A stretch of DNA of 64,000 bases from Asterias amurensis (Eukaryota > Echinodermata > Asteroidea > Forcipulatida > Asteriidae). The notes under the pieces are model-generated. The model was not told the DNA's origin, ran no database searches, and saw only the letters and a list, made by a program, of their open reading frames with translations. Location of the stretch: the NCBI RefSeq assembly GCF_032118995.1, contig NC_092648.1, forward strand, positions 3,487,001-3,551,000, in the 5' to 3' direction. Shown piece by piece: positions 3,188-64,000 of this stretch (positions within the stretch are counted from its first letter, which is position 1; every line of letters begins with the position of its first letter). A program made the translations under genes and the position numbers.

Positions 3188-3536
3188 GGCTGGTTTCACA
3201 AAGCGCTAAGACTCATCTTAAGATGAGTTGTCAAATTAGGGAGTTTTCGTTTTGGAAGATGGATGGTTCTGCGACGGTGAAAATGAAATATCGAGTTATC
3301 TGCACATGCGTCGCTTCGAGGACAGTTGTTTCTCAATTTCTACAACAATACTTGGGATGAATCTGCATTTTGCTGAAAACGACAACATTTGGCTGAAAAC
3401 TACATACCCTCGCAGAACCACCAGTCGTCAAAAACGAAAACTCCCTACTGACTTGTAGTGTGACATCAAACTTTGCAAGGCATTTAAGATTGATTTGTTG
3501 TTTGGATCAGTCTTAGCTCTTTGTGAAATCAAGCCC
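3188..3536. mobile_element. MITE with a second MITE nested inside
   Basis: The outer ends are inverted: GGTTTCACAAAGCGCTAAGA at the left and the reverse complement of GATTTCACAAAGAGCTAAGA at the right. The interior (3238-3446) has its own inverted ends, AGGGAGTTTTCGTTTT and AAAACGAAAACTCCCT. This is most simply one element inserted into another. Open frames here are short and look accidental. Confidence 0.65.
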
Positions 3537-14869: not shown

Positions 14870-15890
14870 TGGCCTTACTTTTTTTTTTTTTGGGGGGGGG
14901 TCTTCAACATAGTAAATTCATGGGTTATTTTTACCTGAGCCTAAGGGAGTTTGACCATGAAGAAGCAGCACGCACCTCCGCACAAGGCAGAAGTGGCACA
15001 CACCTCCGCATCAAATGCAGAAGTGGCACGTACCTTCGCATGATAAGTGCAATCTCACAATGTCACCATTATAGGAGCTGATACTCCCATGATAAGAGAC
15101 AGACTATAATGGGATACACTGCAAGACATCATACTTAGGTGACACGCCTTCAACACGATGGATTCTCCCTTAGTTGCTGTGTTTTTTGTTGCTAAGACTA
15201 GGGTAAGGGCTATTCTATTCCAAGTTTAACATTTTTTTTTTTGTGGGGGGGGGGATCAATTCATAATAGTAAATATTGATAGGTTATCTTTGCCTGAGCC
15301 TAAGGGAGTTTGACCATGAAGAAGCAGCACACACCTCCGCACAAGGCAGAAGTGGCACACACCTCCGCATCAAATGCAGAAGTGGCACGCACCTTTGCAT
15401 GATAAGTGCAATCTCACAATGTCACCATTATAGGAGCTGATACTCCCATGATAAGAGACAGACTATAATGGGATACACTGCAAGACATCATACTTGGGTG
15501 ACACGCCTTCAACACAATGGATTCTCCCTTAGTTGCTGTATTTTTTGTTGCTAAGACTAGGGTAAGGGTTGTTCTATTCCAAGTTTAACATTTTTTTTTT
15601 TTTTTTTTTTTTGGGGGGGGGGTTAATTCATAATAGTAAATATTGATGGGTTATCTTTGCCTGAGCCTAAGGGAGTTTGACTGTTAAGAAGCAGCACGCA
15701 CCTCCGCACAAGGCAGAAGTGGCACACACCTCCGCATCAATGCAGAAGTGGCACGCACCTTCGCATGATAAGTGCAATCTCACAATGTCACCATTATAGG
15801 AGCTGACACTCCCATGATAAGAGACAGACTATAATGGGATACACTGCAAGACATCATACTTGGGTGACATGCCTTCAAAACGCTGTATGT
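14870..15890. repeat. ~360 bp tandem repeat, nearly 3 copies
   Basis: Units start at about 14878, 15230 and 15590. Each opens with a poly-T run then a poly-G run, continues with CCTGAGCCTAAGGGAGTTTGA, and has three short sub-repeats around GCAGAAGTGGCACACACCTC. The copies are very similar, so the array is young. The homopolymer openings vary in length. Confidence 0.85.
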
Positions 15891-20900: not shown

Positions 20901-23900
20901 AAGTAGAGTAAAGCAACATTTGCAACCAGTGGCATTTAACCAAAGGTCTGTTGCTCAAGAAATTAAAGTAAAGCAACATTGGCAACCAGCAGCAAACAAC
21001 CAAGGGTCTGTCGCTCAAGAAAGTAAAGTAAAGCAACATTGGCAACCAGTGGCATTTAAACAAAGGTCTGTTGCACATGAAAGTAAATTAAAGCAACATT
21101 GGCAACCAGTGGCGTTCAACCAAAGGTCTGTTGCTCAAGAAAGTAAAGTAAAGCAACATTGGCAACCAGTGGCATTTAACCAAAGGTCTGTTGCACATGA
21201 AAGTAAATTAAAGCAACATTGGCAACCAGTGGCGTTCAACCAAAGGTATGTTGCTAAAAAAAAGTAAATTAAAGCAACATTGGCAACCAGTGGCGTTCAA
21301 CCAAAGGTCTGTTGCTCAAGAAAGTAAAGCAAAGCAACATTGGCAACCAGTGGCATACAACCAAAGGTCTGTTGCTCAAGTAAGGAAAGTAAAGCAAAGC
21401 TACATTGGCAACCAGTGGCATTTAACCAAAGGTCTGCTGCTCAAGAAAGCAACATTGGCAACCAGTGGCATTTAACCAAAGGTCTGTTGCTCATGAAAGT
21501 AAAGTAAAGCAACATTGGCAACCAGTGGCATTTAACCAAAGGTCTGTTGCTCATGAAAGTAGAGTAAAGCAACATTTGCAACCAGTGGCATTTAACCAAA
21601 GGTCTGTTGCTCAAGAAATTAAGTTAAAGCAACATTGGCAACCAGTGGCATTTAACCAAAGGTCTGTTGCTCAAGAAATTAAAGTAAAGCAACATTGGCA
21701 ACCAGCAGCAAACAACCAAGGGTCTGTCGCTCAAGAAAGTAAAGTAAAGCAACATTGGCAACCAGTGGCATTTAACCAAAGGTCTGTTGCACATGAAAGT
21801 AAATTAAAGCAACATTGGCAACCAGTGGCGTTCAACCAAAGGTATGTTGCTAAAAAAAAGTAAAGTAAAGCAACATTGGCAACCAGTGGCATACAACCAA
21901 AGGTCTGTTGCTTGTGAAAGTAAAGTAAAGCAACATTGGCAACCAGTGGCATTTAACCAAAGGTCTGTCGCTCAAGATAGTAAAGGAAAGCAACATTGGC
22001 AACCAGTGGCATTTAACCTAAGGTCTGCAGCTCGAGAAAGTAAAGTAAAGCAACATTGGCAACCAGTGGCATACAACCAAAGGTCTGTTGCTTGTGAAAG
22101 TAAAGTAAAGCAACATTGGCAACCAGTGGCATTTAACCAAAGGTCTGTCGCTCAAGATAGTAAAGGAAAGCAACATTGGCAACCAGTGGCATTTAACCTA
22201 AGGTCTGCTGCTCGAGAAAGTAAAGTTAAGCAACATTGGCAACCAGTGGCATACAACCAAAGGTCTGTCACTCAAGACAGTAAAGTAAAGCAACATTGGC
22301 AACCAGCGGCATACAACCAAAGGTCTGTTGCTCAAGAAAGTAAAGTAAAGCAACATTGGCAACCAGTGGCATTTAACCAAAGGTCTGTCGCTCAAGACAG
22401 TAAAGTAAAGCAACATTGGCAACCAGCGGCATACAACCAAAGGTCCGTCGCTCAAGAAAGTAAAGTTAAGCAACATTGGCAACCAGTGGCATACAACCAA
22501 AGGTCTGTTGCTCAAGAAAGTAAAGTATAGCAACATTGGCAACCAGTGGCATTTAACCAAAAGGTCTGTCGCTCAAGACAGTAAAGTAAAGCAACATTGG
22601 CAACCAGTGGCATTTAACCAAAGGTCTGTCGCTCAAAAAAACAAGTTCAGCAACATTGGCAACCCGTGACATTTAACCAAAGGTCTGTCGCTCAAGAAAG
22701 TAAACCAAATCAACATTTGCAACCAGTGGCTTTACCACCAAAGGTCTGTCGCTCAAGAAAGTAAAGTAAAGCAACATTGGCAACCAGTGGCTTTACCACC
22801 AAAGGTCTGTCGCTCAAGAAAGTAAACCAAATCAACATTTGCAACCAGTGGCATACTACCAGAGGCCTGCTGCTCAAGAAAGTAAAGTAAAGCAACATTG
22901 GCAACCAGCAGCATTAACCAAAGGTCTGCTGCTCAAGAAAGTAAAGTAAAGCAACATTAACAACCAGTGGCATACCACCAAAGGTCTGTCGCTCAAGAAA
23001 GTAAAGTTAAGCAACACTGGTAACCAGTGGCATACCACCAAAGGTTTGTCGCTCAAGAAAGTAAAGTTCAGCAACATTGGCAACCAGTGGCTTACCACCA
23101 AAGGTCTGTTGCTCAAAAAAGTAAAGTAAAGCAACATTGGCAACCAAAAGGCATACCACCAAAGGTTTGTCGCTCAAGAAAGTAAAGTTAAGCAACATTG
23201 GCAACCAGTGACATTTAACCAAAGGTCTGTTGCTCAAGAAAGGAAAGTAAAGCAAAGCAACATTGACAGTAAACCCGGCCAGCAACCAGTGGCATAGCAC
23301 CACAGGCACCTCGCTCAAGAAAAGAAAGTGAACTGACATCAGCAACCAGTAGCTTACCACCAATGGTCTATTGCTAAAGAACCAACAGTGAACCGACGTC
23401 AGCAACCAGTGGCATACCACAACAGGCCTGCTGCTCAAGAAAGTAAAGTTAAGCAACATTGGCAACCAGTGACATACCACTAAAAGCCTGTCGCTGATGA
23501 AATGAGAATGAACAGACATCAGCAATCAGTGGCATACCACCAAAGGTCTATCGCTCAAGAAACGACAGTAAACTGTCATCAGCAACCAGTGGCATACAAC
23601 CACAGGTCTGTCGCTCAAGAAAGAAAAGTAAAGCATCATTGGAAACCAGCAGTGGCATACCACTAAAAGCCGGTCACTGATGAAACGACAATGAACCGAG
23701 ATCAGCAACCAGTGGCATACCACCACAGGCCAGTCGCTCAAGAAATGACAGTGAACCGACATCAGCAAACCAGTGGCATACCACCACAGGCCGGCGCTCA
23801 AGAAATGACAGTGCATTTACATCAGCAAACCAGTGGCATACCACCACAGGCCGGCGCTCAAGAAATGACAGTGCATTAACATCAGCAAACCAGTGGCATA

Positions 23901-24497: not shown

Positions 24498-34255
<9,758 letters not shown>

Positions 34256-37773: not shown

Positions 37774-40700
37774 TCAAACCAACCTCTCCTGTTCTGGAAT
37801 CGGTACGGCCTCTACCCCCTCCTCATCAGCCACCTCTGGCTTGTTCGGACCGCCGGAGTACTCCTGGGCCCAGGACTTGTAGTTCTGCCAGTAGTTCTTC
37901 TCTGATTGTCCCATGTTGACGGTTTTGGTGGAGTGACGCCTACGTCTCTTGTAGATGCAGATGGTTGTGAGGAGGATGAGTAGAAAGAAGAGGATGAAGG
38001 ACACACTGCCACAGACAATCGCTGTGACGCGCAGCTGGTGGCTGGTCAGTACATCTGAGTGGGCAAAACACACACACAACGAGCTTAAAATCATTTATGC
38101 ACTAAATAGAGCTGCTTAAGGATAAAGACTAGCTCAACACAACTACGCTTACCAGAAAGTGGTTACCAGCTAAAATACCAGTACGAGTAGTTTTACGAGT
38201 AGCATATGTGACTGGTATCCTGCCTATTATTGCTTATACCCCCATCACACTGAACTCATTTTGAAAAATGTAGTCTCGGTGCACTTTCACTCAACTATCG
38301 CAATCCCCTGATTGACCCCTACTCGCCGTGCACATTACTATCGTCTTGCAACAAGAAATCTTTCAGAACATAGTGAGAACAAGTAGATTTGAATCGTGTC
38401 TGGCAAATTATCTGCCAAGTCACAATTCACGACTTAAGTTTGAATTCATCAGACAAGGCAGAGGCGGTTGCCATGTCAGATGATTCGGGCAAGCTTTTAC
38501 TTGAGACTGGAAACTTGTAAAACACATGTGTATGGCACAATGGTACCAGGCTTCGCCCATCTGGATTTCGCTATACAAAAGCTTCCCTCATACCAATTCA
38601 CATAGAAACCGTCTCTTTAGTCTGAGGAATTCAAATTCAAACGGGAACTTGTGAGTAAGCAAATCATTGTCTCAGACATTATCCAAATCTAACTTATTGC
38701 ATGAATGTTTGATTCAATGCTACCTTACAAGAGAAACTATAGGACCTCTAATATTATTCTTATAATGAACACATATTGCAGCCTATTCAATTAGAGTTAT
38801 TGCATCACCAACATTTGTAATTCCTGCACCTTGCAAGTTTTCCCACTCTCAGCTCCAAAGCTGACATTTGCTTGTGTTTCATCATTCAAATACATCTTTT
38901 AAGACAGAAACTTTGGAAAATATGGTGTAGGTTTCAATGAACTTTTCGTTCTATTCAACCACAAATTTGTTTGTGTTTTTTCCCATGGGCAAACAAATCT
39001 GATATCAGACTAGAGTGGGAAGAATATCACGTTTGGCTTTTTGGGGGTAAATAGCGCCTTTTAGAGTGAGACTGATAGTCCTATTATGCAGAGGATTTAA
39101 AGAGGCACTCTGGCAATAACCAGGCCCTCTCTGAAGTATGACGCTAGTTAAGCCAGGTTCATACTTTCTGCGAATGCAAATGCCATACGAACTTTGACAT
39201 CACAAATTTGCAACAAATTATTCGCATCGGTGAAAATGTGCTCAACTCCTGCAAAACATTCACAGCAAAAACAGGGCTGTGGCGTCAAAATTTGTTTTGC
39301 TGTAACATTCGCAGAAAGTATAAACTACAAATAAATGAGAGATGAAAATTTACCTCCTGCATCAGCTGTGCTTGCAGTGCCAGTTGTCTTAGCTACTGAG
39401 GTATACCCTGACAAGGTTTCCATGTTGTCCTTGTTGACGGTCGTCTTCGTGTTGACAGTACCCGTCATCCCCACCTCATCTTCCACACCCGACACCGGAG
39501 TTGAAGCAGTTATGGCTGAAGGGTCATCTGACTGCGGAACTGGCACGTTGACACGCTCCCTATCAGGTCGCGTAAAATCCCTCTTGTCACCATTGGGCGG
39601 GACAGTCATGCCATCCTCTCCAAGAAATCGGAAGTCTACTCCTGAAGTACCTGATTCCGTGATGTCTCCAGTGTTATGGGATGTTACTGAGTCGGCAGAC
39701 ACTAGGCTGGCATCAATGAAGTGCATCCTGAAGCCTGGACCATTTCCTGACATTGTTTTAAGCTCGATGATGACAGAGTTCCCTGTTGAGATGAGAGGAG
39801 ACGGTGGGACGTTCCCGCAAAACTCATAGAGACTGCCATCCATTAAAACACGAACCGAGGCGGAATCTTCAGAACAAGTGGATGTGTCAACCTCGTAGTC
39901 ATCCAGGTCAAAGTCCAGGAAAGACAGATGAATTCCTTGCTCTCCTGGTACAGTGATGGTCCAGGTACATTCTTCTCCTTGAGGCATACCCTGAGGGAAG
40001 TACGGCGAGCGGATCACTCCTTCAGGGTTACTGAAAACTCGTTCACAAGGAGTATCACCGATAAGACTGCCTTCAGTAACCCGAGCAGCACTGTCCTCTT
40101 CCTGAGAGCTCATGGGTGATGTTGTTTTCCCAGCATCTGTCCCATGACCTGTATTTCCGTCTCTGTCAATGAAAACTGGGCCGAAAGATCCTTGATATGT
40201 CTCCGCACTGATGAATTGATAGGCCGCAACAAATCCAAAGTCGATACCAAACATGCTTCTGAAAGTCACAACCAACCTGTTAGTTGGAGAGATGATTCTG
40301 GGCGGTAGCTGTTGACCACAGTAAGTGTAGTCTCTCCCACCGTAGGCGTCAGAAGTGGTGATGACAAGGTGGGAGTATTTATTATCGCAAGGAGGAGAGT
40401 CGTCAGAGTCCAGTAGGAATTGGGAGAAGTCCAGACGTACAAGCCAACCACTAGGAGCAAGCATAATCCACTGACACACTACCTCCTGTGGATACATACT
40501 GGGGTAGTCTGGCGACGAAAAGTGACCTCTGCTTTTTGTCAGGGTATACAGGCACCCATCTGTGATCTCCACTATGGGATTCCGGGTATTCATGACATAT
40601 TCCTTATAGGTAGATTGGCTTTGTATAGGTGTTGGTGTATCTGGTTCTTCGGTGACAAACCCAAAATCTCCAAAACGAATGTCAGACGAGTATGTTGCTC

Positions 40701-43700
40701 TAAATCCACGACCAATGCCATAGGTGCTATGGAACGCCAGTTTAAGCTCACCGTACGAATACACAGTGGTCGTCATTTGATTTGAGCAGATGAGAAATTC
40801 TGAGTTTCCTCTGTCGATGGTGTAGGTAGTGAGGGCCACATTGGTGTACAATGTATTGCATTGTCCGCTCTCACCAGTTATTGCATCAAAGTCGATATCT
40901 TCAAAGATGAGAGTGATGAATGTCTGACGAGCTGGTCTAATAATCCATAGTTTGTCCACATTGTGCGGGAACTGCACTGGGTAGTTTGGTGAGAGAATCT
41001 GTCCAGATTGTGCAGTTAAGACCAAGGGGGATATAACACTTACAGTAGCAGCTGGTATTGCGGTTGTCCAAACATCACTGCTGGATTGACTGTATGCTTG
41101 ATATGAAGCTTTAAAACCTTGTCCCATACCAAGGTTACTTTCAAAATACACCACCGCCGAATGCGTTCTCATTTTCAATATTTCAGGCAGTTCACTTCCA
41201 CACAGGAGATGGGCTTCCTGGATGCCGCTTTCTCCTTGGTAGCTCACTCTGACGTATGAGTAGTGAATAGAGCAATCCGGTTGCACCATGGGATTGTCAA
41301 TATCAAAGTCTAGAAACTTGAGGGCGATGAAGTGCGTGCTATCGACAAAGATATGCCTATGAGCAAATGGTATCGAGAGGGTACAAGTTAGGATAGCCTG
41401 GGGTTGAAAATTCAGCATAGTCTTCTCTTAGCATACTGCCGCAGGATGGAAGCTGACTTCCTACTGCTGAACCAGATGTTGGTAAAACAGCAACAGTTGT
41501 TAGGCCACCACTCGAAGGGGTTGAGTAGAGTGATACTCTGCACGGAAGCCTCGACTAAACCCATACAATCCACTGAAGACGATCAACAGTTCATTAGTTG
41601 ATGCTACAAAGCTTGGGGGTACTTCCTGACCACAGTATACTTGAGACGCACCGGTTCTTGTGTCGATGATCTTTAAGTTGGCATACATCTCCTCACATCC
41701 GTTCTCAAATAAAACAGAATCCAAGTCAAAGTATTCAAAGACAACGGTGATGGTGCCAGCCTCCTGCAGCTCTATGTACCATTGGCAGTTTATGCTTTGG
41801 GTCCTTTCCATTGTGGATAAATCTGGAGATTGTATTACACCATCAGGAGAGTCCAGAATACCACCACAGCCGAGAATGGATGGAATTGAAGTCGATGGAA
41901 GGAGTATGAGGTAGTCGTCTTCCAAGTCGAGTGGAGAGTAACCTGCTTCGAATCTTCCCCCGTAGCCATATTGACTGATGAAAGTGATGATTAATGAATT
42001 ACTGGTTGACACAAAGTCCTCTGGAAGATCATGACCACAGTAGACATGTTTTGGACTTGTCTCTTCACTGCTGCCATCAACTACAAGTACATGAGCGTAT
42101 CTTGTGTCACATTCATTACCAACAGGCATAGAATCTACATTGAAAACCGTGAACCTCAGTACAACCTTTGAGCTAGCATCCAAAGTGATTTTCCATACGC
42201 AGTTGACACCAGTGGTGTAATCGCCGGGGAAGTTTGGAGATTTTATTTCCCCGGTAGGTGTTGAGAAATCTCCACCACACTCATGAGGTTGAACAGCCAT
42301 TGGCAACTTGGATGTGGAAGGTGATAAGGTATTGGTTAATATGTCTGGCTCCATGACTTTGTATTCGGCAGTGAAACCACCACTGTATCCATAACTGGTG
42401 TAGAATATTACAATCAGATAATTGGATGACGACACGTAAATGTTTGGGATATCCTGACCACAATAAACAAACTCAGACCTGCCAACTTGTGTCTCGCCGT
42501 CTACTATCTTGAGATAGTCATATCGTTGGTCACATTCGCCATTAACAGCCATTGAATCTAGATTAAAGTCTGTGAAGGCAAGCTGAATCAGTAAGTTGTC
42601 TCCCACTGTGATGGTCCATCTGCAAGTTCTGCCACCAGTGGCTTGGTCACCCAAGTAAGAAGGAGATTGAATTGTCCCATATGGTAGGTTGAGGTTTCCT
42701 CCACACTGATATGAAGACTCATCAGTTAGATGTGCCTGTGTTGACTTGGATGTGGAAGGTGATAACGTATTAGGTAGGATCTTGTCTGGCTCAACGACTT
42801 TGTATTCGGCAGTGAAACCACCACTGTATCCATAACTGGTGTAGAAAATTACAATCAGATCGTTGGATGACGACACGTAAATGTTTGGGATATCCTGACC
42901 ACAATAAACAAACTCAGACCTGCCAACTTGTGTCTCGCCGTCTACTATTTTGAGATAGTCATATCGTTGGTCACATTCGCCATTAACAGCCATTGAATCT
43001 AGATTAAAGTCTGTGAAGGCAAGCTGAATCAGTAAGTTGTCTCCCACTGTGATGGTCCATCTGCAAGTTCTGCCACCAGTGGCTTGGTCACCCAAGTAAG
43101 GAGATTGAATTGTCCCATATGGTAGGTTGAGGTTTCCTCCACACTGATATGAAGACTCATCAGTTAGATGTGCCTGTGTTGACTTGGATGTGGAAGGTGA
43201 TAACGTATTAGGTAGGATCTTGTCTGGCTCAACGACTTTGTATTCGGCAGTGAAACCACCACTGTATCCATAACTGGTGTAGAAAATTACAATCAGATCG
43301 TTGGATGACGACACGTAAATGTTTGGGATATCCTGACCACAATAAACAAACTCAGACCTGCCAACTTGTGTCTCGCCGTCTACTATTTTGAGATAGTCAT
43401 ATCGTTGGTCACATTCGCCATTAACAGCCATTGAATCTAGATTAAAGTCTGTGAAGGCAAGCTGAATCAGTAAGTTGTCTCCCACTGTGATGGTCCATCT
43501 GCAAGTTCTGCCACCAGTGGCTTGGTCACCCAAGTAAGGAGATTGAATTGTCCCATATGGTAGGTTGAGGTTTCCTCCACACTGATATGAAGACTCATCA
43601 GTTAGATGTGCCTGTGTTGACTTGGATGTGGAAGGTGATAACGTATTAGGTAGGATCTTGTCTGGCTCAACGACTTTGTATTCGGCAGTGAAACCACCAC

Positions 43701-46700
43701 TGTATCCATAACTGGTGTAGAAAATTACAATCAGATCGTTGGATGACGACACGTAAATGTTTGGGATATCCTGACCACAATAAACAAACTCAGAACTGCC
43801 AACTTGTGTCTTGCCGTCTACTATCTTGAGATAGTCATATCGTTGGTCACACTCGCCATTAATAGCCATTGAATCTAGATTAAAGTCTGTGAAGGCAAGC
43901 TGAATCAGTAAGTTGTCTCCCACTGTGATGGTCCATCTGCAAGTTCTGCCACCAGTGGCTTGGTCACCCAAATAGGAAGGAGATTGAATTGTCCCATATG
44001 GTAGATTGAGGTCTTCACCACACTGGTACAAAGTCTCATCAGTTAGTATTTGTGCCTGGGTCGATGCGGATGGGGAAGAAATAGCATCTGTAACTTGGCT
44101 GGCATCAAGCGTTGCGAAATCAGCATCTCGTATGACGTAAGATGCCTCAAAACCTTCCCCATAACCATACACCCCAACATAGTCCACAATCAGTGTTCTC
44201 GATCTGGAAGTGACTTTAGGCGGGACATTTTGGCCACAGAAAATGTTTGACGACTGCTGATCCGTCACTTTGACATGAGCGTAGTTCTCGTCACACTGTC
44301 CGTCCACCGTGTAGGAATCAATATCGAACGCTGTGAATGTTAGGAGAATAATCCATCCAGATTCAACCGTTATGTTCCACCTGCAGTTATCGCTGGTCTG
44401 CTTTGGTAGCTGAATGCTACCACTTGGCTGGTTGAACGATCCCCCGCACAGAGGTTCTGTTACTGACATAGAGGAAGGCTCAATACCCAGCTTAGGGTCT
44501 CCTGAGCCACTATCATACACTTGGTAAGCACGATAAACTGCTCGAAAGCGATCGCTGTATCCATATGAACTATCAAAAACAACAAGAAGCGTATTTGTGG
44601 TGGTGATGAATGACAGAGGTATCTCTTGTCCACAGTAGATGTTGCTCTTTCCTGAGCCTTCCACTACCTTAACATGGGCATAACCCTCGTTACATTTGCT
44701 GTCAATGGGGAGAGAATCTAAGTTGAACTCGGTGAAAATAAAGGAGATGACCTCAGTGATATCCACTGTAATGTTCCACTGGCAGTGCAAACCCATTTCA
44801 AACTCTCCTTCCAAGTGGTCTGGCAACTGAATGACACCTCTTGTCTTGTTGAAATTCCCTCCGCACACTGATTCCGTTGGTTTGATTCGATCTTCCCGAA
44901 GAGCTGTGTAAACTGCATGGAACCTTCCGCCGTATCCGTACAAACTAACAAAAGTTACTGTTAGTGTGTTGGTTGATGAGATGAAGAGTGCCGGGACTTC
45001 TTGCCCACAGAACACATGACTACTCCCATGAAAACCATCTATAACTTTTACGTGAGCGTAGCTTTCACTGCACCAGTTGTCGACTGGAAAAGAGTCCAAG
45101 TTGAAATCAGTGAAATTGAGGGAGATGGTTAGTCCAGCTTCTACTGTTACAATCCATTGGCAATCAACACTGGTTTCAAAATCTCCAGGGTAGTTTGGTG
45201 ACTGAATGACGCCTGTTGAGTCCTCCTGGTTTCCTCCACAGGAGTGCTGTGGTTCTGTTATTGCTGTTACTAGGGGCTTTGAATCTTGCTTGATAGCTTT
45301 GTAGAATGCGTGGAACCTTCCACCGTAACCATACATACTAACAAAGGAGATGCTTATTGTATTTGTTGTCGAGATGAAATATGGTGGAACCTCTTGCCCG
45401 CAGAACACATGACTACTCCCATGGCTTCCATCAATTACTTTCACATGAGCGTAGCTCTCACTGCACCCGTTGTCGACTGGAAAAGAATCCAAGATGAAAT
45501 CAGTGAAATTGAGGGAGATGATTAGTCCAGAGTCTACTGTTACAATCCACTGGCAATCAACACTGGTTTCAAAATCTCCGGGGTAGTTTGGTGACTGGAT
45601 GAAGCCTGTTGAGTTCTCCAGGTTTCCTCCACAGGGGTGCACTGGTTCTGTTGATGGAACATCTGGACTTGATGTTAAGAGGGGCTTTGAATCTTGCTTG
45701 ATAGCTTCGTAGAACGCGAAGAACTTTCCACCAGAACCATACATACCAACAAAGGAGATGGTTATAGAATTTGTCGATGATATGAAAAGTGGTGGAACCT
45801 CTTGCCCACAGTACACACGACTACTCCCATGGCTTCCGTCATCTACTTTCACATGAGCGTAGCTTTCACTGCACCAATTGTCGACTGGAAACGAGTCCAA
45901 GTTGAAATCGGTAAAACTGAGGGAGATGGTTAGTCCAGATTCTACTGTTACAATCCACAGGCAATCAACACTGGTTTCAAAATCGCCAGGGTAGTTTGGC
46001 GACTTTATACTACCTCTCCGTTGAGTCAAAACACCTCCACACACACGATCAGGCACCACTGTTGTTGAATACTGGTTACCCATAAAATCGCCCAGTTTAT
46101 GCATAGCAAAGTCAGCATGGAACCCTGTACCATATCCATAACTACTTATAAACGTCACAATAAGCATGTTTGATGATGATACTATTCGTTCAGGTACTTC
46201 TTGACCGCAATACACATGTTTCCTATCAGTTTCTAGACCAGATCCATCAACAACTGTAATATGTGCATATCGGCTGTCACATTGATTATCTATCAGTGCC
46301 GAATCCAGATCAAAATGGGTGAAATTGAGAGAGATTAATCTGTGTGGTCTAGTTGTGATGTTCCAACGATAGCGAACACCCATGGGGTATGCATCGGGAT
46401 AGTTTGGGGATTGAAGCTCACCCGAGGGGTTGTTGATCACCTGATTAAAGTCCCAGGGCTCTCCGTCCAGAGCTAAGTCAGGTTGGTAATCATCAACTCT
46501 AGGCGGAAGTTTTTGATCAACTCTAGGCGGAAGTTTTTGAGTGACATTAACTCCGAACAGGTCATTAAACACCTCCCCAACTAAGGCAAGGCTACCATTG
46601 ATACTTGTGTCTCTTTGTAGAGCATTCAGAAGCTGCTGGGAGTAACCTTGAATGCATGATGCTTCAGGTATATCTGACTGGATGCGGGAAGCATTCTGAA

Positions 46701-49700
46701 TGGTGTAATTCAAGAACTGACTGGCCTGTGATATAATTTCTGAAACGCCGTCTTCCAAACTCTCTATGAGCAGAAATTGGATCAACTGCGGATTATCAAG
46801 AGCTGCATCCCCTGAGAAGTTGAAACTGAGCATCTCAACTGGAAGGCTTGCTGTGAGTAATGATTTAGTGTATTCTAAACCCTGTACCAGCCGTGATAGA
46901 GACTTGAAGGATTCCAGCGTTTCATTCATTGTCTCGCTCAGATTCTGGCAGGCCTGTATTATGCTCTCTCTGTCATGTAAGTTCACATTGACCAAAGTGT
47001 TAAATACTTGGGACAGAGACTGAGTGAGAGGGTGGTCAAATTCCTCTGAGGGGAAACCCGGTTCCAGGGTAATATCTGGGAAGGAGAAGGAAGGTGGTGG
47101 CGATGGAAGCAGTGGTGTTAGACTTGGAAGCAGCGGTAGTAGAGTTGGAAGCAGTGGTGGTAGAGTTGGAGGAGGCGGTGGTAGAGTTGGAGGACTTGAT
47201 GGAGGAACAGTGAACTGTCTTTCAGCTTCTGGATCTGTTATAGGCCTGCGCTGTTCTGTGGTGAGGGCTTGCCATTGTGTTTTAACATCAAGGTGCTGTT
47301 CAGTAGTGGATGCTGACTTGGCTGAAGAGGGGAGATGCTGCTGGGAGATTGTTTCTTTCGGCTCATTGGAAACTATGACTTCTGTTGTGCTTATGGGTTG
47401 GTATCCTGCAGTAGAACCTCGCTCTTGATAAGTGAACATTTGAGTGAGCTGTTGAGTTCCAATTTCGCCAGCATGAGTCTGAGTAGCGATGTCTTGTTCA
47501 GTTCTGATCCAACTTTCATCCGGTTCGGTTAAATACTGAGGTTTGTCTGTTAGAGGATCAACTGGTCCAGTCAGCGAATCAGATTGCTGCCTTCTCGTGG
47601 TTACAGGTTGTAGTTCATAGATCTCAGTCAGAAGTTGTTCAGCTTGAGTAACAGGCTGCTGAACATCTGTTTTGGCCATAGTTAAAGTTTGAGTTTTGTA
47701 GGACTCAGTTCCAACTTGTTTTCCAGTTTGAATTCCAGGTTCTTGATTATCTATTTCACTCACTGATGGTTGTATAGTTGGAACAGTTATCTCTTTCAAA
47801 ATCGTTGTTATGAGCTGGTGTCCGTTTAATTTAGTAACTGGTTGCTGTTTGGCATCAGTTTGCAGCTTTACTGTTTGACTTAAAATTTGTTGCCAAGAGC
47901 TTGTTAGTTCCTGTAAACCATTCAGATTGGTTAGTTCTTCGGTTTGAGTCACAATTTGTGTACCAGGCTTTGTTGTTGGTATCAGATTGGAGGTAGAGAG
48001 TTGTTGTTTCGTTTGAGTTATAGTTTCTTGTTCCGTAGGTAGTGATCTTGTTGAAGGTTGTAGCTCATCAGGTTTAGTTAAAGGTTCCTGTTTAACTTCA
48101 GTGACTGGAAGCTCTTCGATTTGAGTCACAAACTGTTGCCAAGACTTAGTTACTGAATCTGTATTAGAGACGGACGGCTGTTTAGCATCAGAAACGTCTC
48201 TAACTTGAGTCACAGTGTATTGTTCAGGCTCAGTAACAGGTAGCAGCGTAACTCCAGTTGTTTGTTGCCAGTCAGGCGGACTTACAGATTCTTGATCAGA
48301 TTGAAGTAGATATATCTGCTCAGTTCGAGTAAGAAACTTTAGTTCGGTTTGGGTGACGGGTAGCTGTTCAGTTTTAGTAGCCTCTTGCTGTTTATTATTG
48401 CTGGTTAATACTGTAGAATGCTCTTTTGATTGCGTTAGAGGCTGCCCAGTTTGAAGTTCATGATGTGAAGTTACCCCATCAGTTGATGATATTGTTTGTA
48501 ACTGAGATGTTCTTTGTGGTTGACTTCTGCTATCAGTTGCGTCTTTAGGGAGGGTCTGTGTTAAATCAGGTTGCGTGCTGAGGTCAGTCACAGTCGAAGG
48601 CGTATCTGATGGAGGTGGATTTGTGTAGCCTACAAACAAGCCCATGCTATTTCCGAAAAAAGAAGTGCCCAATTGGGGATTACCAATTGCAACTGATTCA
48701 AAAGAAAATTTGTCTCCTGGTGCGATTGTTAGTTGATCACTCTCTTGAGTAAAAGGAGAGGTGGTTGCTGGATTAACAGATGATCGATGCAGCAATGTTG
48801 TAGGTGCTTCAGTGGTCTCAATGACTTCCATTGAGGGTCTGCCTGCCGAGGATGACTCAGCCTCTGTACTTGGTTCAAAGGTTATCTGATCGGCAATGTA
48901 ATCCGAGAATTTCACCGAGGTCACAGCCTGGATGCTGAGTAGGAAACCTTTCCCCTCGTCTCTGCGGTTTGTGTGGAAGATGATCCAAACTTCATTGGTG
49001 ACGGAAAGAATAGCTGACGGTAAGGGCGATTCGGACATTAAAGCATTGCAGAATATCCCAAGGTTCTTTCCCGTTCTTGAGCCGTCTCGCATCATGACGT
49101 AATCCTCTCCCGGGTTGCAGACACCTCTAGAGCCCCCTTTGACATCGAACGACATGAAGCGGAGCAGCACCTGTGATGGGAAGAAAGAAGAACAAATGTT
49201 ACACAGATAGATGTTAAATAAGCATGGGGCATAAAGAATATTATTTGGTTTTATGCAAATGTGTGTATAAAGCACTGAATATTCAGCACTTTCCCCAAGT
49301 CTTATGAATATTATGCCTGTAGTTATTTTTAACAGAACTCAAACCAACTTGCTCGTCAATATCCTTGCGGATATCTGTTTTGTCAACACCAAAAGTCTAA
49401 TTCCCCTAACGGTGGTCCTCTGGCTGTTGCATACTATAAAAAGGGTTGTATTGTAAATTTGGGTGTGAATCCTGGCAACAGGACAGCTAACAGTTGCATG
49501 GTTCAACAACTGGCAACCCCGAACAAGTTGACATAATAGGGAGACCGACAATAGGGCTAGATAGCTCAGTTGGTAAAGTGCCGGCATGTTAAACCATCCG
49601 TTTAGAGTCCTGACCTAGTAAAGTTGTCTTTGTTGAACCCCAAAATATGAAAAATAAAAATCCTGGTCAGTTTCCTAAGAGAGGTTTGCGGTAACACCAT

Positions 49701-52700
49701 GTGAATACCTAATTGCGTTCTCCTGAAGACGTTCTTCAGCATACTGATCGAAACGTGGAGTCTTTAACCACTGGTTCGTTTCAGAGCCAACACTACTCAA
49801 TTTTCACATGGTGTTACCGGAAAACCTCTCTTATTTAAACTTCCACCTTGCAAAGTTTCAAATCCTATAGTCAGTTTCCCCTTGTGGTATATTAATTGAT
49901 ATTTGAAATAAATTTGATGAGTGGTTCCTTGTGGCATACCTGTTTTGAAGCTGGAGCTTGTATTGTCCATACACAGAGGAGGTCTTGTGCATATCCCCTT
50001 GGGAAGCCAGGAGACTGTAAAGATCCCACGCCAACTTGGACTGCTCCACCACATTCTGAGAACCAAACAATGTGATAATAGTAATAATAATTATAACAAT
50101 AACAATAATAATACTAGGTTTTTATATAGTGCTTTATCACATCCCTAGGGGCGTATCAAAGCACTCAGTGTTTTGAGCTGCAAGGCATGTAGAGCTATGT
50201 TTTGAAGTATGAGACCTATTTCTTTAGAGTAATGGTTTACAAGGTGCTGTGGCACAATATGCTGTCAATCAAACAAGGAACACTAGGACGAACCCCTTCT
50301 CTTTTAGTGTATGGTTTATTGTATGTGTTTTACACAACACGGGAGACCATCGGCTTTACATCCCATCCAAAGATGAAGCAATGGTTAAGTGTCTTGCTTA
50401 AAGGCAGTGGACACTATTGGTAATCACTCAAAATAGTTATCAGCATAAGACCTTACTTGGTAGTGACCATTGGAGAGCTGTTGATAGTATAAAACACTGT
50501 GAGAAACAGCTCCCTCTGAAGTAACGTAGTTTTTGAGAAAGAAGTAATTTTCCACCAATTTGATTTCGAGACCTCAGATTTAGCATCTGAAAACACACAA
50601 TTTCGTGTGACAAGAATGTTTTTTTCTTTCATTATTATCTTGCAACTTCATCGACCGATTGAGCTCAAATTTTCACAGGTTTGTTATTTTATGTATATTT
50701 TGAGATACACGAAGACTAGTCTTTGACAATTACCAGGAGTGTCCAGTGTCTTTATGGACATAGGTGCCACGACTGGGACTCGAACCCACACTTTCAAACG
50801 GTTTCAAACGCTTTTCAAAGACCAACTCGACAGATCCAAGGCAAAATTTTCCTTTCAGGACTGAGAATATTTATATTTCCCTGGGACAGGAAACCAGTTC
50901 ATCGCATGTTACTCCTCTGGTCTCGCAAATACTCATTTGTACTTCTGGGTGGAGAAAAGCAATTATGATAACATCCTTGTTCAAAGACACAAGTGTCGTG
51001 GCAGATGAGGCAAGGATCGAAACTCACATTCTTTAAACATACAGAACTTAAGTCTATCGCCCTAGCATGCCCCCGGCCACCACACCCCACTTTATAGAAA
51101 GTATGTTACAAACATTGAGGGAGGGGTGAGTCTAAAACAAAACCTTTTAAAAAGTCTTAGATTTGTCATTCCTCTAAACTTTGCAGTACTTTATAACTTC
51201 ATACATTTATCTTCTTCTTACCTTTTTCTGCATCTCTGCGGGACCGACCGAGGGCAAGTTTCTTGAAGATTTGTGACTGCTGGGAGTCCTGGAAAAGAGA
51301 AAAGATATCAAAAAAAGAAGAATTATAGACGAGCACACAGAAAACACAAAAAAGATACCCACATTTGCAAAAACTAATGCAGTCTAAAGATGTAAATTAC
51401 CAAAAGTATACCCTACCTTTTTAAGGCAATTAAAGGGAAATGTTGTTGGATCAGTGGAGTTGGTCGTTGAAATGCATATGGTTAGATAGATAATTTAAAA
51501 GCAGAATATAATGATCTACACAAACATGCCTCGAAAATGCACAGTTTTTCTTTTATGTTCGAACAAACACGGTCGGCCATTTCGTGGAGTCAAAATTTTG
51601 ACTCAATACAATGGCCGACTGTGTTAGTTCGCGACCTATAAAGAAAACCGTGCAATTTTGAGGCATGTTTTTGTGGATCATTATATTCTGCTTTTAAATT
51701 ATCTATCTAACCATATGCATTTAATAACGGTTTCAAACACTTTTAAAAGACCAACTCGCCTGATCCAAGGCAATGTGTACGAGGGCCAAAAAGGAAATTA
51801 AGAGTCAATATGACATTATAAATTACCATTTCCTAAAGTAAGCTCCCGATGAAATGCTCCAATAAATAAAGTCATACCTTAGATTATAGAAGTCTTATTT
51901 AAGCAATTTCATTTACAAGTGTTTTTCATTTTAAAAATGAACCTGTCATAATTAAGACTTGTACTGAGGCATTATTGTGATATAAGTCACTGTTTCCCCC
52001 TCTCTCAGTGGCCCTTCAATGGTTAATTAAAAACAATTTTTTTTTGACCCACTCAGGCCATAATATTTCGATTTTTAAATATCTAATGGCTTCAAATAAA
52101 TCTATATTTTGAAGAACAAAGTAATGCCTCAAACGGAACAGATATTTTAGATCAAATGTCTCTAATCAGTGTTATCAATATAACAAATGTTGGCTTAAAC
52201 AAACAACTTTTATGTGTACATTAATCAGAAATGAATATTTTGTCTTCCGTTTTTTTTTTTTTAAATGAATTTCGATTTTCAGGTTTTTCTTTTGGCCCAC
52301 CTCCCATCGTTTCAAGAAAGAAACAAATCTAATTTATTAATTATTAGCAATGTTCTGGATGGCCCCTAAATTTTTAAATTAAAGTATAAGACAATTCTCC
52401 GTCTCATTCTCTGTCATTTGAGAAAGGAAGGCTGGTTCTCCAAGATAAGGATGGAGAAACGAGAAAGAACAAAAGGTGGCAAAAGATGAGGCTGACGGGC
52501 TTATTTTATGGCCGTATCTTTAAAATTTCAAGACGTACGAAGTCGTCTTATTCGCGTACGAACTTAAAAAAAATCAATTTATAACGATCCCACCGTTTGA
52601 ACAAATTATTAAAGTTAAAGTATAGACTTCTCAAACCATTATAACGGCGTGGCTCACTAAACCATTTCTCATTTAAAAAGAGAACGCTTTCATTCCAACA

Positions 52701-52984
52701 AATGGTGTTGGACTTGAAGCCAAGAAGTGGCTGAATAAAAAACACTACGGCAATAATAATAATTCTAAAATTCAACACCGATGTTCTTAAGTTACACCGG
52801 CGTCCATTTTAGGCTGCGAGAATGTCTTCCGCCGTAGACCATTTCTTAAACTCACCTTCGACAGAACGTTTCGGAGAAACTGAAGGACCCTTGCATGGTC
52901 TCTTGGTGTGCCGTCTTGACTGCCACGAACACGGCCTCCATACAGCAATAAAACCACGCAGAAAGTCAAGATTTTAGTCCACAT
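37774..52984 (-). CDS. Giant multi-CUB type I transmembrane protein, ~3,470 aa
   Basis: Five coding exons agree in phase: 52856-52984, 51222-51288, 49940-50055, 39354-49170 and 37774-38054. The start MWTKILTFCVVLLLYGG is a signal peptide. A basic site RSRR follows in exon 2. CUB 1 is split across exons 3 and 4. Next come a Thr/Gln/Ser-rich stalk of about 600 residues, a Pro-rich stretch, an unassigned helical, glycosylated region of ~190 residues, and CUB 2-17. The last exon holds the membrane helix (VTAIVCGSVSFILFFLLILL) and a tail starting KRRRR. CUB modules are extracellular beta-sandwich domains for protein or carbohydrate binding. With no catalytic domain, a receptor, adhesion or uptake role is inferred. 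Two offsetting frame shifts lie in CUB 14. The nearest known type is cubilin-like, but EGF repeats are absent and a membrane anchor is present. Confidence 0.88.
39155..39328. mobile_element. MITE in last intron of the multi-CUB gene
   Basis: Inverted ends GTTCATACTTTCTGCGAATG and CATTCGCAGAAAGTATAAAC, about 174 bp. It sits only ~25 bp from the donor of the 9.8 kb exon. Confidence 0.7.
41358..41523 (-). other. Segment in shifted frame within CUB 14
   Basis: Upstream the frame reads FRAEYHSTQP and reaches a stop at 41500-41502. The CUB-like reading (SCGSMLREDYAEFSTPGYPN) is in another frame until about 41358, where an apparent extra base lies in TGCTCATAGGCAT (minus strand). The original frame then resumes with HIFVDSTHFIALKF. 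One base seems to be missing near 41517-41523, next to a GGGGTT run. Assembly error, a broken allele or recoding are all possible. Confidence 0.75.
42290..44030 (-). repeat. Four tandem near-identical CUB units (CUB 8-11)
   Basis: The period is 438 bp, or 441 bp where a Ser codon is kept (QSPSYLGD compared with QSPYLGD). Each unit includes the domain and a linker with LSPSTSKSTQAHLTDES. The nucleotide sequence is almost unchanged between units, including silent sites, so the duplications are recent or gene conversion is active. Confidence 0.9.
44880..46050 (-). repeat. Older CUB duplication set (CUB 3-5)
   Basis: Three successive domains share QSPNYPGDFETSVDC, FPVDN and the linker IKQDSKPL. 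They differ at many more positions than CUB 8-11, so they record an earlier round of the same expansion. All keep the four cysteines typical of CUB domains. Confidence 0.8.
46470..47060 (-). other. Unassigned region between stalk and CUB 2
   Basis: About 190 residues, predicted helical by eye (SLSQVFNTLVNVNLHD, ETLESFKSLSRLVQGLEYT, LIQFLLIESLEDGVSEII). It has several N-glycosylation sequons (NLS, NET, NFS, NYT, NAS, NGS, NVT) and only two cysteines. It resembles no extracellular module I can name. A short microduplication (KLPPRVDQKLPPRVD) closes it. It could form a stalk coil or a dimer contact. Confidence 0.6.
47060..48900 (-). other. Thr/Gln/Ser-rich stalk with degenerate repeats and Pro-rich end
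   Basis: Degenerate ~20-residue repeats follow the pattern TQTEQLPVT, SEIDNQEPGIQTGKQ, VTQAEQLLTEIYELQPVT. Their richness in Thr, Ser and Gln suits O-glycosylation. The end is a run of Pro/Leu with SPPTLPPPPPTLPPLLPTLL. It probably forms an extended spacer between CUB 1 and the rest. Confidence 0.75.
49557..49870 (+). repeat. tRNA-like head plus hairpin repeat with hammerhead-like core (Penelope-like candidate)
   Basis: TAGATAGCTCAGTTGGTAAA looks like a pol III A box. Further on, GAGAGGTTTGCGGTAACACC (from about 49680) and its inverted near-match GGTGTTACCGGAAAACCTCT (about 49809) surround the CTGAAGA...GATCGAAACGT core. Related to the copies near 2.3 and 63.2 kb. Old, broken, noncoding; it lies in intron 3 of the multi-CUB gene. 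Confidence 0.45.
50075..50800 (-). repeat. SINE interrupted by a MITE
   Basis: This antisense copy of the SINE seen at 45-450 has its ATT tail at 50075-50112 and its body to 50397. The head resumes at 50756 with the antisense B box GGGACTCGAACCCACA. Between the halves lies family A copy 7. It is in intron 2 of the multi-CUB gene. Confidence 0.7.
50398..50755. mobile_element. MITE family A, copy 7, nested in SINE
   Basis: The uninterrupted SINE reads CTTGCTTAAGGACA here. The insertion leaves TTAA at the left and TTAT at the right, which supports a TTAA (or TA) target. It is younger than the SINE. Confidence 0.8.
50796..50850. mobile_element. Terminal fragment of the foldback element family
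   Basis: AACGGTTTCAAACGCTTTTC followed by AAAGACCAACTCG and GATCCAAGGCAA matches the outer end of the element at 51430-51775. Confidence 0.6.
51430..51775. mobile_element. Long foldback element in intron 1 of the multi-CUB gene
   Basis: The arms at 51470-51516 and 51676-51722 are a perfect 47 bp inverted repeat (AAATGCATATGGTTAGATAG...). The palindrome continues inward through CACGGTCGGCCATT and TGGCCGACTGTG to a central GAGTCAAAATTTTGACTC. Weaker matching extends outward (TTGGATCAG(T)GGAGTTGGTC). It is noncoding; the transcript would form a long hairpin. Confidence 0.85.
51780..52855. other. Rest of intron 1 of the multi-CUB gene
   Basis: AT-rich, without a second gene. A 76-codon minus frame (52548-52778) begins with a signal-like MLNFRIIIIAVVFFIQ but is low-complexity and unsupported. 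Confidence 0.5.
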
Positions 52985-59100: not shown

Positions 59101-60890
59101 TAATAATTAAAAGATTTAGGGGCGCATATTTTGACAATCATACTTTAGAAGGCAGATGCTGAAAATGATAAAAGAATTTTATTCTTTAAATAACCAGCTT
59201 TAACAGCAAATTTATGCTTACTAACAGAGTTTCCAGTTTATAGCACTGCTTACCGTCAGCACATGAAAAGGCATGGTGCTAAATGTATACAAATTAATGA
59301 CATAAAAATGCAAATCCATGGTAAGCGCGCAAACTGGTCACTAAATTTTCTTGCTAACCTGTGAAAGGCCTACAGGGTTATTATATTATGGTTAGCCCAA
59401 AATTTGCTTACGATTAAAGGCAGTGGACACTATTGGTAATTGGGAAGACTAGCCTTCACAGTTGGTGTATCTCAACATATGCATAAAATAATTAACCTGT
59501 GCAAATTTGAGCTCAATCGGTCATCAAAGTTGCGAGATAATAATGAAAGAAAAACAACCCTTGTCACACGAAGTTGTGTGCATTTAGATGGTTGATTTTG
59601 AGACCTCAAGTTCTAAACCTGAGGTCTCAAAACCAAATTCGTGGAAAAATACTTCTTTCTCGAAAACTATGGCATTTCATAGGGAGCCGTTTCTCACAAT
59701 GTTTTATACCACCAACCTCTCCCCATTACTCGTAATCAAGTAAGATTTTATGCTAATAATTATTTTGAGTAAATACCAATAGTGTCCACTGCCTTTAAGC
59801 AGCGCTATGAAATTGATCCCCGGGTCCACAGATGTGAAAGGCAGTGAAGAAATCCCACAGTCAACCCGAATGTATCAAAAACTTACAAGAGACTACGTTT
59901 TACCTGGTGAGTGAGGCTACAAAATTCCTGTTGTTGGACGTACAAGCGCCTCATTGCCATTCTACATCGTCCGACCATCCACCCCAGCCTCTTAGCACAG
60001 TCACTCGGCAGCAAGTCACCGGAGATGGAGTTACTAGCTCCTTTCATCCTCGTCATGGCCTTTACGACCTCCTCAAGGTGTAAGTGCGCCGTGTCGGCTA
60101 CCGCCATCGCCCTGTCATCAAGAATGATATCAGCTAGGATATCCGTCTTGGCCAAGAGCCAGGCGCATGCAAGAAGCACCTCACGACTTCCCCCACTCAT
60201 GTCATCTGGAAGGCGATATAGCTTGTTACACCGATAACCCTCTGCCCACATAGCATGCTTTGTTGAGGAGATGCGGTGAGTTGGTCTTGTGTGGCGTGCT
60301 GCGTCTGTCTTAGATGGGATGCACTTGTGGGTGTTATAGTGGGCGAGGGAGTAAAGGAGTGACCATAACGGAGCAACCTAAAAATAAAAATAAAATAAAT
60401 AAATCAGTTATTGTGGTGTCCTTGCCAAGAGGTCTAGCTCATCGGACTCTAGCCCTGCCGGCTTTTACTTTTGTTTTATACTACAGTACAGAGAAAGAGT
60501 CCTAATGGACCCCTGCTCTGGTGTCGTCAGCAGCAGAGTGTTCGTTTGAATCCCGGTCATGAAACTTGTACCCTTGAGCAAGGCTACTATCCATAACTGC
60601 TTGAAAAAGATGGGATGGTAATGCACTAACAGTCAGGCTTCAAGTGGATGATGGTAGAGGGGTTACCCTGTTTCAGCCCCAGGAGTAGAAGGCAGCGTGC
60701 CCCTGTTGACAGTTGACAAATATATTGAACTATGAACCATGAATATACTTACAGCTTCTGGTTTGTTGAACTTGGCCTGCCTGAAGATCTCTGGGGTGAG
60801 TCCGGTAATTCCTTTAAGATTCAGGAGTTGACATAGAGACCCGATGGCGTCCCTCGGCCGTCCGGCTGATGACCTTGAGGATGCCATCAT
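56146..60890 (-). CDS. TEDC1: Tubulin epsilon and delta complex protein 1
   Basis: Six coding exons, all in phase 0: 60753-60890, 59904-60377, 58979-59077, 58381-58467, 57389-57571 and 56146-56475, giving 436 residues (human TEDC1 is about 426). The order of conserved pieces fits the family: LTPEIFRQAKFNKPEA near the start, VAPLWSLLYSLAHYN, then RLPDDMSGGSREVLLACAWL, VQQQEFCSLTHQ, QQQTFWQWM, an acidic linker, and a C-terminal coiled coil (ITRLSAVVEQLKVELEDL). The family partners TEDC2 with delta- and epsilon-tubulin to stabilise triplet microtubules of centrioles; this follows from the family, not the sequence alone. MITEs occupy three introns. Identification is by remembered similarity. Confidence 0.88.
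56460..56590. repeat. ~60 bp duplication of the exon 6 acceptor of TEDC1
   Basis: CTAGCCTGTTTGTAAAAAAC...CCCTTAAAGTGTC at the intron/exon edge is copied directly upstream as CTAGCCTGTTTGAAAAAAC...CCCTTTAAGTGTC. The upstream copy carries a second CAGGCTAG acceptor that would give a different frame downstream. Confidence 0.75.
56841..57232. mobile_element. MITE family A, copy 10, TEDC1 intron
   Basis: A full-length copy bounded by TTAA, with the central palindrome (TCGAGACCTCAGGTT, AACTTGAGGTCTCGA). It lies between coding exons 5 and 6. Confidence 0.85.
58150..58272. mobile_element. Foldback element, TEDC1 intron
   Basis: GGTTTTCAACTAGTGGTTTA and its inverted match TAAACCACTAGTTGAAAACC enclose GCCTGGTTCTTTATAATTTA and its partner. 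Almost the whole ~120 bp is one hairpin. Confidence 0.8.
58510..58725. mobile_element. Second foldback element, TEDC1 intron
   Basis: GACTTGTGGACAAGTC...AATGGTCCCAC is mirrored by GTGGGACCATT...GACTTGTCCACAAGTC. The inner arms include GTTCGCACGAGAGCAGTG and its partner. It is between coding exons 3 and 4. Confidence 0.8.
59414..59798. mobile_element. MITE family A, copy 11, TEDC1 intron
   Basis: Bounded by TTAA (ATTAAAGGCAGTGGACACT at the left, AGTGTCCACTGCCTTTAA at the right). Ends and interior are close to the commonest form, so it is one of the youngest copies. Confidence 0.85.
60404..60650 (+). repeat. SINE copy in TEDC1 intron
   Basis: Shares CTCTGGTGTCGTCAGCAGCAGAGTG and the B box GTTTGAATCCC with the SINE at 45-450, followed by CTTGAGCAAGGCTACTATCC. 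It lies between coding exons 1 and 2. Confidence 0.6.
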
Positions 60891-63365: not shown

Positions 63366-63432
63366 CGTGAAACTAATTATTTGAAGCTTTTTTAAGTTCA
63401 TGCTGGATTTATAAATAACTGAGGAGAAAACG

Positions 63433-63754
63433 ATGTCTGCGCTTACGGAAAACAGTTACTTCCGATTTATGGTGCTGACTTTAGGCTATGTTGCCTACCT
63501 GTGTGTCGGTGCCGGAGTTTTTGTCGCCTTCGAACAGCCAGTGGAGAGCGAATACAAACGAAAGCTACAGGATGCTACGGGAACATTCCTTCACGAGAAC
63601 CCTTGCGTGGACCCGGTGAAACTTCAGGGGTTCGTGGAGGAGGTTATGACGGCGGGGAGTAAAGGGATCAAGCTGGAACCTGATGGCTCGTCCTTTACGG
63701 TCTGGAACTTTGCCTCGGCTGTCTTCTACAGTGTCACGCTTGTTACAACCATCG
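63433..63754 (+). CDS. Two-pore-domain potassium channel, first coding exon (TWIK-like), partial
   Basis: A 107-codon exon opens with ATG after AGGAGAAAACG and ends at a GTTAGT donor after the first pore motif. Residues 11-33 form membrane helix M1 (FRFMVLTLGYVAYLCVGAG). The extracellular cap follows, with Cys58 (HENPCV) at the place of the cap cysteine that links subunits in many family members. Then comes pore helix 1 (WNFASAVFYSVTLVTTIG), which would continue as TTIGYG, the K+ filter. Such channels pass background K+ current and set resting potential at the plasma membrane. The similarity in M1 and pore is greatest to the KCNK1/KCNK6 group, a tentative subfamily call. Later exons lie beyond the window. 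Confidence 0.88.
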
Positions 63755-64000
63755 GTTAGTTTTTGGTTTGCCAAATAGTTATTTAGATAGTCAAGAATAT
63801 TTTGAATAAATTATAAAGGGAAACACCTTTTTAGGTTGCAAGCACTGTGTTGCAAAAAGGCACGAAACATGGGATGCGTCCAAATTGTTTTTAGTGAACA
63901 CAATTACAAGGTATGATTGTTAGTATCATGCTGTGACAACCGTCGGTTAGTTTTTGGTTTGACAAATAATTATTTAGATTGTCAAGAATACTATTTTATA
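63745..64000 (+). repeat. Duplication of the channel exon's 3' edge
   Basis: ACAACCATCGGTTAGTTTTT...ATTTAGATAGTCAAGAATA at 63744-63800 recurs at 63938-63996 with a few changes (ACAACCGTCGGTTAGTTTTT). Only the last ~10 coding bases and the intron start are copied, giving a decoy donor about 194 bp downstream. Confidence 0.85.

Follow-up and report, generated by a model that had tools for sequence, protein, structure and literature searches.

CSMD proteins carry many CUB domains (CUBs) together with a membrane helix. Cubilin comprises eight EGF repeats and 27 CUBs and is anchored by amnionless (PMC6283879; this and the other papers cited here are drawn on in excerpt). SOL-1 of C. elegans and dSol-1 of Drosophila each have four CUBs and type I membrane topology, and the excerpt describing them names no other extracellular domain (PMC9083331). 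CDCP1 (CD318) combines three CUBs with a membrane helix and a cytoplasmic region; it has two palmitoylated Cys and, at Tyr734, a motif for association with Src (PMC7893822). In the sea urchin egg bindin receptor EBR1, an ADAMTS family protein, the CUBs are contiguous with TSP domains and accompanied by HYR repeats, and the excerpts report no predicted membrane helix (PMC8403831, PMC9265791). Here, we describe a gene of the starfish Asterias amurensis that encodes 17 CUBs, a long stalk, and a membrane helix, and in which no CUB keeps the full set of calcium ligands. It lies in a stretch of 64,000 nucleotides (nt) of contig NC_092648.1 (assembly GCF_032118995.1, positions 3,487,001 to 3,551,000), referred to below as the window.

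The gene is on the minus strand and runs from an ATG at 52984 to a TGA at 37774 (window positions, as throughout; all features of the gene are on this strand). These are exactly the limits given in an earlier reading of the letters by a model, the original prediction. Exons 1–3 and the tail exon were placed by splice consensus and domain continuity, giving five exons in total. Exon 1 (52856-52984) contains the ATG, a hydrophobic start representing the signal peptide (MWTKILTFCVVLLLYGG...), the start of the propeptide, and a GT donor; exon 2 (51222-51288) carries propeptide with RSRR at its end, directly ahead of CUB1, the first part of which is encoded by exon 3 (49940-50055). Exon 4 (39354-49170) is 9,817 nt long and encodes the remainder of CUB1, the stalk, a helical region, CUB2-17, and most of a Ser/Thr-rich stem. 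Exon 5 (37774-38054) supplies the membrane helix, a KRRRR stop-transfer sequence, a Tyr/Trp-rich and then acidic tail (~58 amino acids [aa]), and the TGA. Each of the four introns has a GT donor and an AG acceptor, the phases fit, and the spliced length of 10,410 nt is divisible by three. The longest stop-free run of the large exon is 2,556 codons, whereas none of 200 mononucleotide shuffles gave a run above 217, so chance is excluded as the source of its open frame.

The encoded protein consists, in order, of a signal peptide and a propeptide with RSRR (together residues 1-65), CUB1, the stalk, an unassigned region, CUB2-17, the stem, the membrane helix, and the short tail. RSRR is a putative furin-like site, and the first 66 aa matched no Pfam family. 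With the Pfam model PF00431 (cut-off 21.4 bits), 13 CUB stretches were found in open reading frame P0001 and 4 in P0002, and all 17 CUBs exceeded the cut-off when scanned one by one, the intron in CUB1 and a break in CUB14, described below, having been bridged for the purpose. Single scans gave 30.3 (CUB15, the weakest) to 72.3 bits (CUB1) for the eight CUBs 1, 2, 6, 7, and 14-17, and 47.8 to 78.7 bits for the nine CUBs 3-5 and 8-13. Four Cys are present in 15 of the 17; the first Cys pair is missing from CUB2 and CUB15. CUB2 to CUB13 occupy 41515-46446, and the remainder of CUB14 followed by CUB15, CUB16, and CUB17 occupies 39712-41361. Linkers after CUB3-12 (10 of 16 gaps measured) are 14-38 aa long and mostly rich in Ser, Thr, and Pro. 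The stalk (47080-48927; residues 186-801, 616 aa) is composed of 16% T, 12% Q, 10% S, and 10% P, with no Cys and no N-glycosylation sequon along its length. The stem (38041-39711; residues 3258-3381) contains the last intron (39353-38055), and the membrane helix at residues 3386-3404 is the strongest hydrophobic stretch, with a mean Kyte-Doolittle value of 2.7.

Other extracellular modules were also sought. EGF repeats were found neither in P0001, P0002, and the first 66 aa nor in eight Cys-rich frames from the introns and the 3′ flank, and Pfam searches of P0001 and P0002 returned no sushi domain. The sole non-CUB-type model above its cut-off was DUF3558, at 36.9 against 34.1 bits for the whole of P0001. 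None of its stretches passed alone, and single CUBs reached at most 14.5 bits; we treat this match as spurious because its score accumulates across repeats that resemble one another. The count of 17 CUBs, the near absence of other modules, and the membrane helix thus agree with the original prediction, and its description of the stalk as mucin-like is fair by composition, though the stalk is also rich in Gln.

The original prediction had also presented the protein as open throughout. Most of that reading stands, but it overlooked two mutually cancelling frame breaks in CUB14, with three main-frame stops between them (~41,515-41,360). Across this zone (41360-41515), another frame encodes the linker and, from about 41443, the start of CUB14. 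The main frame reopens unchanged after ~150 nt, and both pieces of CUB14 joined with an X at the break scored 45.7 bits with PF00431. A sequencing or assembly error is the most likely origin of the breaks, because no stop interrupts the other 9.6 kb of the exon, the splice sites are intact, and non-synonymous divergence (dN) between repeats is below synonymous divergence (dS). A damaged allele may also account for them. Taken at face value, the two breaks and the three enclosed stops would make the assembly copy a pseudogene or a shorter secreted protein, ending at the first stop after 13 CUBs and having no membrane helix. We regard this as improbable, given that the frame is recovered so soon, that the start of CUB14 is preserved in the other frame, that the membrane exon and the rest of the 9.8-kb exon are open and the splice sites intact, and that an error in sequencing or assembly is the simpler cause.

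We then considered calcium binding. Calcium-binding CUBs (cbCUBs) share a conserved Tyr-Glu-Asp-Asp motif (PMC10850435), of which we scored the Glu, Asp, and Asp positions and left out the Tyr. In a first alignment, the CUBs of the gene were set beside four references, two from cubilin and two from neuropilin-1; it misplaced the first Asp in both cubilin rows. A second contained the gene's CUBs, four reference CUBs, and 40 other CUBs of the same genome. These 40 controls were the best-scoring rows of the genome-wide CUB search described below that cover nearly the full model in one exon, rather than a random sample, and none has a stop. The full triad is present in none of the 17 CUBs, compared with 33 of the 40 other genomic CUBs and all four references (Fisher test, 2e-9 for the triad and 2e-10 for the last Asp, values that are too small, as 17 repeats of one gene are not independent). 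At the Glu position, 16 CUBs have Asp and CUB1 has Lys. The first Asp is kept in five (CUB1 and CUB8-11), or in six in the second alignment, where CUB17 shifts, and in 40/40 controls. The last Asp is kept in none, being replaced by Ser, Met, Leu, Asn, Gln, Thr, or Val, with a YG turn following in most CUBs of the gene, whereas 35/40 controls retain it. Since 33 of the 40 CUBs from the same genome keep the triad, loss of the calcium ligands is a property of the gene and not of the species. From these residues, we predict that the array would bind its ligands without calcium.

The calcium sites also bear on whether the protein could be a cubilin-like endocytic receptor, its CUB string capturing nutrients or proteins that are then internalized. 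The best match of the array among solved structures is indeed cubilin (3kq4_B, 5.8e-35, and 1.6e-31 in a second search), and both proteins unite many CUBs. However, cubilin has consensus calcium sites, tied to ligand binding, in 13 of its 27 CUBs and uses calcium for binding and release (PMC6283879), and the starfish protein has the triad in none. It also has no EGF repeats and possesses a membrane helix of its own instead of relying on amnionless, and no clear internalization motif was seen in the tail by eye. An endocytic role of this kind therefore appears unlikely.

CUB2-17 all lie within the single 9,817-nt exon, whereas an intron splits CUB1, which suggests that the array grew from an intron-free unit. 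In a search for CUBs across the whole genome (491.5 Mb, 23 contigs), 150 of 442 candidates were scored. Twelve of these rows belong to the gene under study, with open frames of 2,612 or 700 aa; in the other 138 the open frame never exceeds 281 aa, and in many of them the match spans just half of the domain, as it would if introns interrupt CUBs. A second long-exon CUB gene in the genome is unlikely on this sample of the candidates. A tree of the CUBs gave support for just two groups, CUB3-5 and CUB8-11. The former (44866-46041) represent an older internal duplication, with 74-81% protein identity, and the latter (42280-44022) are recent 438-nt tandem units. Units 9 and 10 are the same at all 438 positions, within an exact match that spans 697 nt at an offset of 438, while unit 8 is 96.4% identical to unit 9 and unit 10 is 91.6% identical to unit 11. 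Either the array changed very recently or a repeat was miscounted in the assembly, and 17 is accordingly a soft copy number. The 438-nt units offer a direct handle on the growth of CUB arrays, as their copy number can be typed by polymerase chain reaction or long reads.

Near-identical, recently changed tandem units would also fit a protein for recognition between gametes or of self and non-self, with an array that varies in length and sequence from one individual or species to another. Positive selection and concerted evolution are reported to have shaped the egg bindin receptor and VERL (PMC9275260), and EBR1 itself carries CUB repeats (PMC8403831, PMC9265791). Yet the CUB/TSP alternation of EBR1, its HYR repeats, and its lack of a membrane helix, as far as excerpted (PMC8403831), are all unlike this gene. 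Moreover, dN was below dS in all eight repeat pairs that differ and have finite dS (for example, 0.046/0.129 and 0.123/0.509; three further pairs were left out as identical or saturated), with no sign of positive selection between repeats. We consider such a recognition role doubtful. Slightly more doubtful still is a length-variable receptor, in which CUB units without calcium sites would expand and contract within the giant exon by unequal exchange, and differing unit numbers between individuals or species would set specificity or avidity in gamete, allo-, or microbe recognition.

Structure predictions were obtained for two parts of the protein. An AlphaFold2 model of CUB4-5, built from an 11-row alignment of CUB pairs of the same gene, contained two beta domains (mean predicted local distance difference test [pLDDT] score 78.4, predicted template modeling score 0.49) joined by a linker (118-131) with pLDDT below 50. 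By this model, two neighboring CUBs are predicted to form beta domains of their own, connected by a flexible linker, and this, along with linkers of 14-38 aa, points to an arrangement of beads on a string. The unassigned region (46459-47079; residues 802-1008, 207 aa) has seven N-glycosylation sequons and, from reading its translation, two Cys; it matched no Pfam family above cut-off and no sequence relative in the PDB. Its helical moment exceeded that of all 500 shuffles (z 4.1), and its strand moment was unremarkable, being reached by 52 of 500. When 189 residues were submitted to AlphaFold2 as a single sequence, long helices were modeled at 17-31, 37-78, 97-133, and 140-156 (mean pLDDT 62.9), and comparison of this model with solved folds returned generic helical bundles only. 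We take the region to be a predicted helical bundle.

Taking these features together, we tentatively favor, with a confidence that stops a little short of even, a multivalent, calcium-independent surface protein for adhesion or for capture of ligands or particles, a function deduced from sequence. As a type I single-pass glycoprotein, it would hold a long, flexible CUB string far from the membrane for multivalent binding, each CUB binding weakly and without calcium and repetition providing avidity. Cleavage of the propeptide would occur at RSRR, the stalk and linkers would serve as O-glycosylated spacers, and the helical bundle could be a spacer or a self-association module. The short tail would have only a minor signaling or anchoring part. 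Unequal exchange among the near-identical 438-nt units would change array length and so might tune avidity. Several observations weigh against this proposal. The CUB14 frame breaks, if real, would end the product ahead of the membrane helix, and dN/dS between repeats also reflects gene conversion, in addition to which the pairs overlap. The full triad is likewise missing from 7 of the 40 control CUBs. Some metal binding may persist, because Asp for Glu is a conservative swap, CUB1 and CUB8-11 retain the first Asp (as does CUB17 in one of the two alignments), and Asn occupies the last-Asp position in CUB1 and CUB14.

Elsewhere in the window, a 60-nt tandem repeat of ~86 copies lies at 18047-23255 on the plus strand. 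In one frame the repeat encodes the 20-aa unit AQESKVKQHWQPVAFNQRSV over and over, interrupted by frame breaks, and stretches of the opposite strand are open too; a 204-aa piece had no Pfam match above cut-off, and the array could be either a minisatellite or a repeat protein. A pure TAA repeat (~70 copies, 100% match) is present at 25901-26109, and long-unit arrays are found at 13601-14350 (288 nt at 96%) and 14879-15878 (359 nt at 93%). On the minus strand, an exon at 59883-60377 scored 66.2 bits against TEDC1 (tubulin epsilon and delta complex protein 1). A plus-strand frame at 63415-63759 resembles a potassium-channel exon (Ion_trans_2, 17.7 bits, below the 22.5 cut-off), which we take to be of the two-pore type. 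The mitochondrial DNA of the assembly (contig C23, 16,427 nt) yielded COX1 at 454.9 bits. In this COX1, AAA occupies four conserved Asn positions, in the motifs STNHKDIG, FGNWLIP, DRNVNTTFF, and SINFI, which agrees with genetic code table 9 (echinoderm and flatworm); table 5 would give Lys. ND1 and ND2, named by reading, are on the strand opposite COX1, presumably the starfish-type inversion. These features support an echinoderm origin of the DNA, and the gene order points to a starfish. Two more full-length COX1 copies occur on the minus strand of nuclear contig C5 (658874-660214 and 675294-676634), 16,420 nt apart, near the length of the mitochondrial genome, and reflect either mitochondrial DNA that was recently inserted in tandem or an error in the assembly.

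How, then, does the gene compare with known CUB proteins? In CSMD proteins, sushi/CCP domains alternate with the CUBs, unlike here. The gene resembles cubilin in its very many CUBs and in having cubilin as its best solved-structure sequence match, but differs from it in having no EGF repeats and in carrying its own membrane helix at 3386-3404 in place of amnionless. Its distinctness from cubilin and CSMD, claimed by the original prediction, is upheld by these features. EBR1 is also a large echinoderm protein with repeated CUBs, whereas Pfam found neither TSP nor HYR in P0001 or P0002, and the starfish protein has a membrane helix. Identity as cubilin, CSMD, or EBR1 is thus rejected by the features tested (EGF, sushi, TSP/HYR, membrane helix).

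The closest designs are smaller. Like SOL-1 and dSol-1, the gene encodes a CUB-only ectodomain and one membrane helix, though with 17 CUBs instead of four and with a long stalk and helical region that are not in the excerpted descriptions of those proteins (PMC9083331). Membership of this layout class, type I membrane proteins that are CUB-only or CUB-dominated (PMC9083331), could hint at a role alongside neurotransmitter receptors, as an auxiliary subunit or as a scaffold that clusters them, in the manner of SOL-1, LEV-10, or NETO; with 17 CUBs against two to five, the long stalk and helical region, and no LDLa domain, we find this very improbable. With CDCP1, it shares a CUB ectodomain, a membrane helix, and a cytoplasmic region, but CDCP1 has three CUBs (PMC7893822). 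The model CDCP1_CUB_6 gave whole-frame sums of 61.3 and 38.3 bits (cut-off 27) and CUB_CDCP1_2 gave 41.9 bits in one open reading frame and 16.3 in the other, while none of the 17 single CUBs passed with either (best 25.4 for CDCP1_CUB_6). By reading of the translation, Tyr residues are present in the tail, along with a single Cys close to the inner edge of the membrane. Contrary to what the original prediction had implied, the layout is consequently not without precedent, SOL-1 and dSol-1 (PMC9083331) and CDCP1 (PMC7893822) already being described as CUB-only membrane proteins in the excerpts. Because SOL-1 and dSol-1, with four CUBs, and CDCP1, with three, exist, we read the gene as an oversized variant of a known CUB-only membrane protein design. 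If its layout is conserved, it would be the largest CUB-only membrane protein known to us. All of its CUBs would then have left the calcium-dependent mode that 33 of 40 CUBs in the same genome apparently keep, making the gene a clean test case for CUB function without calcium.

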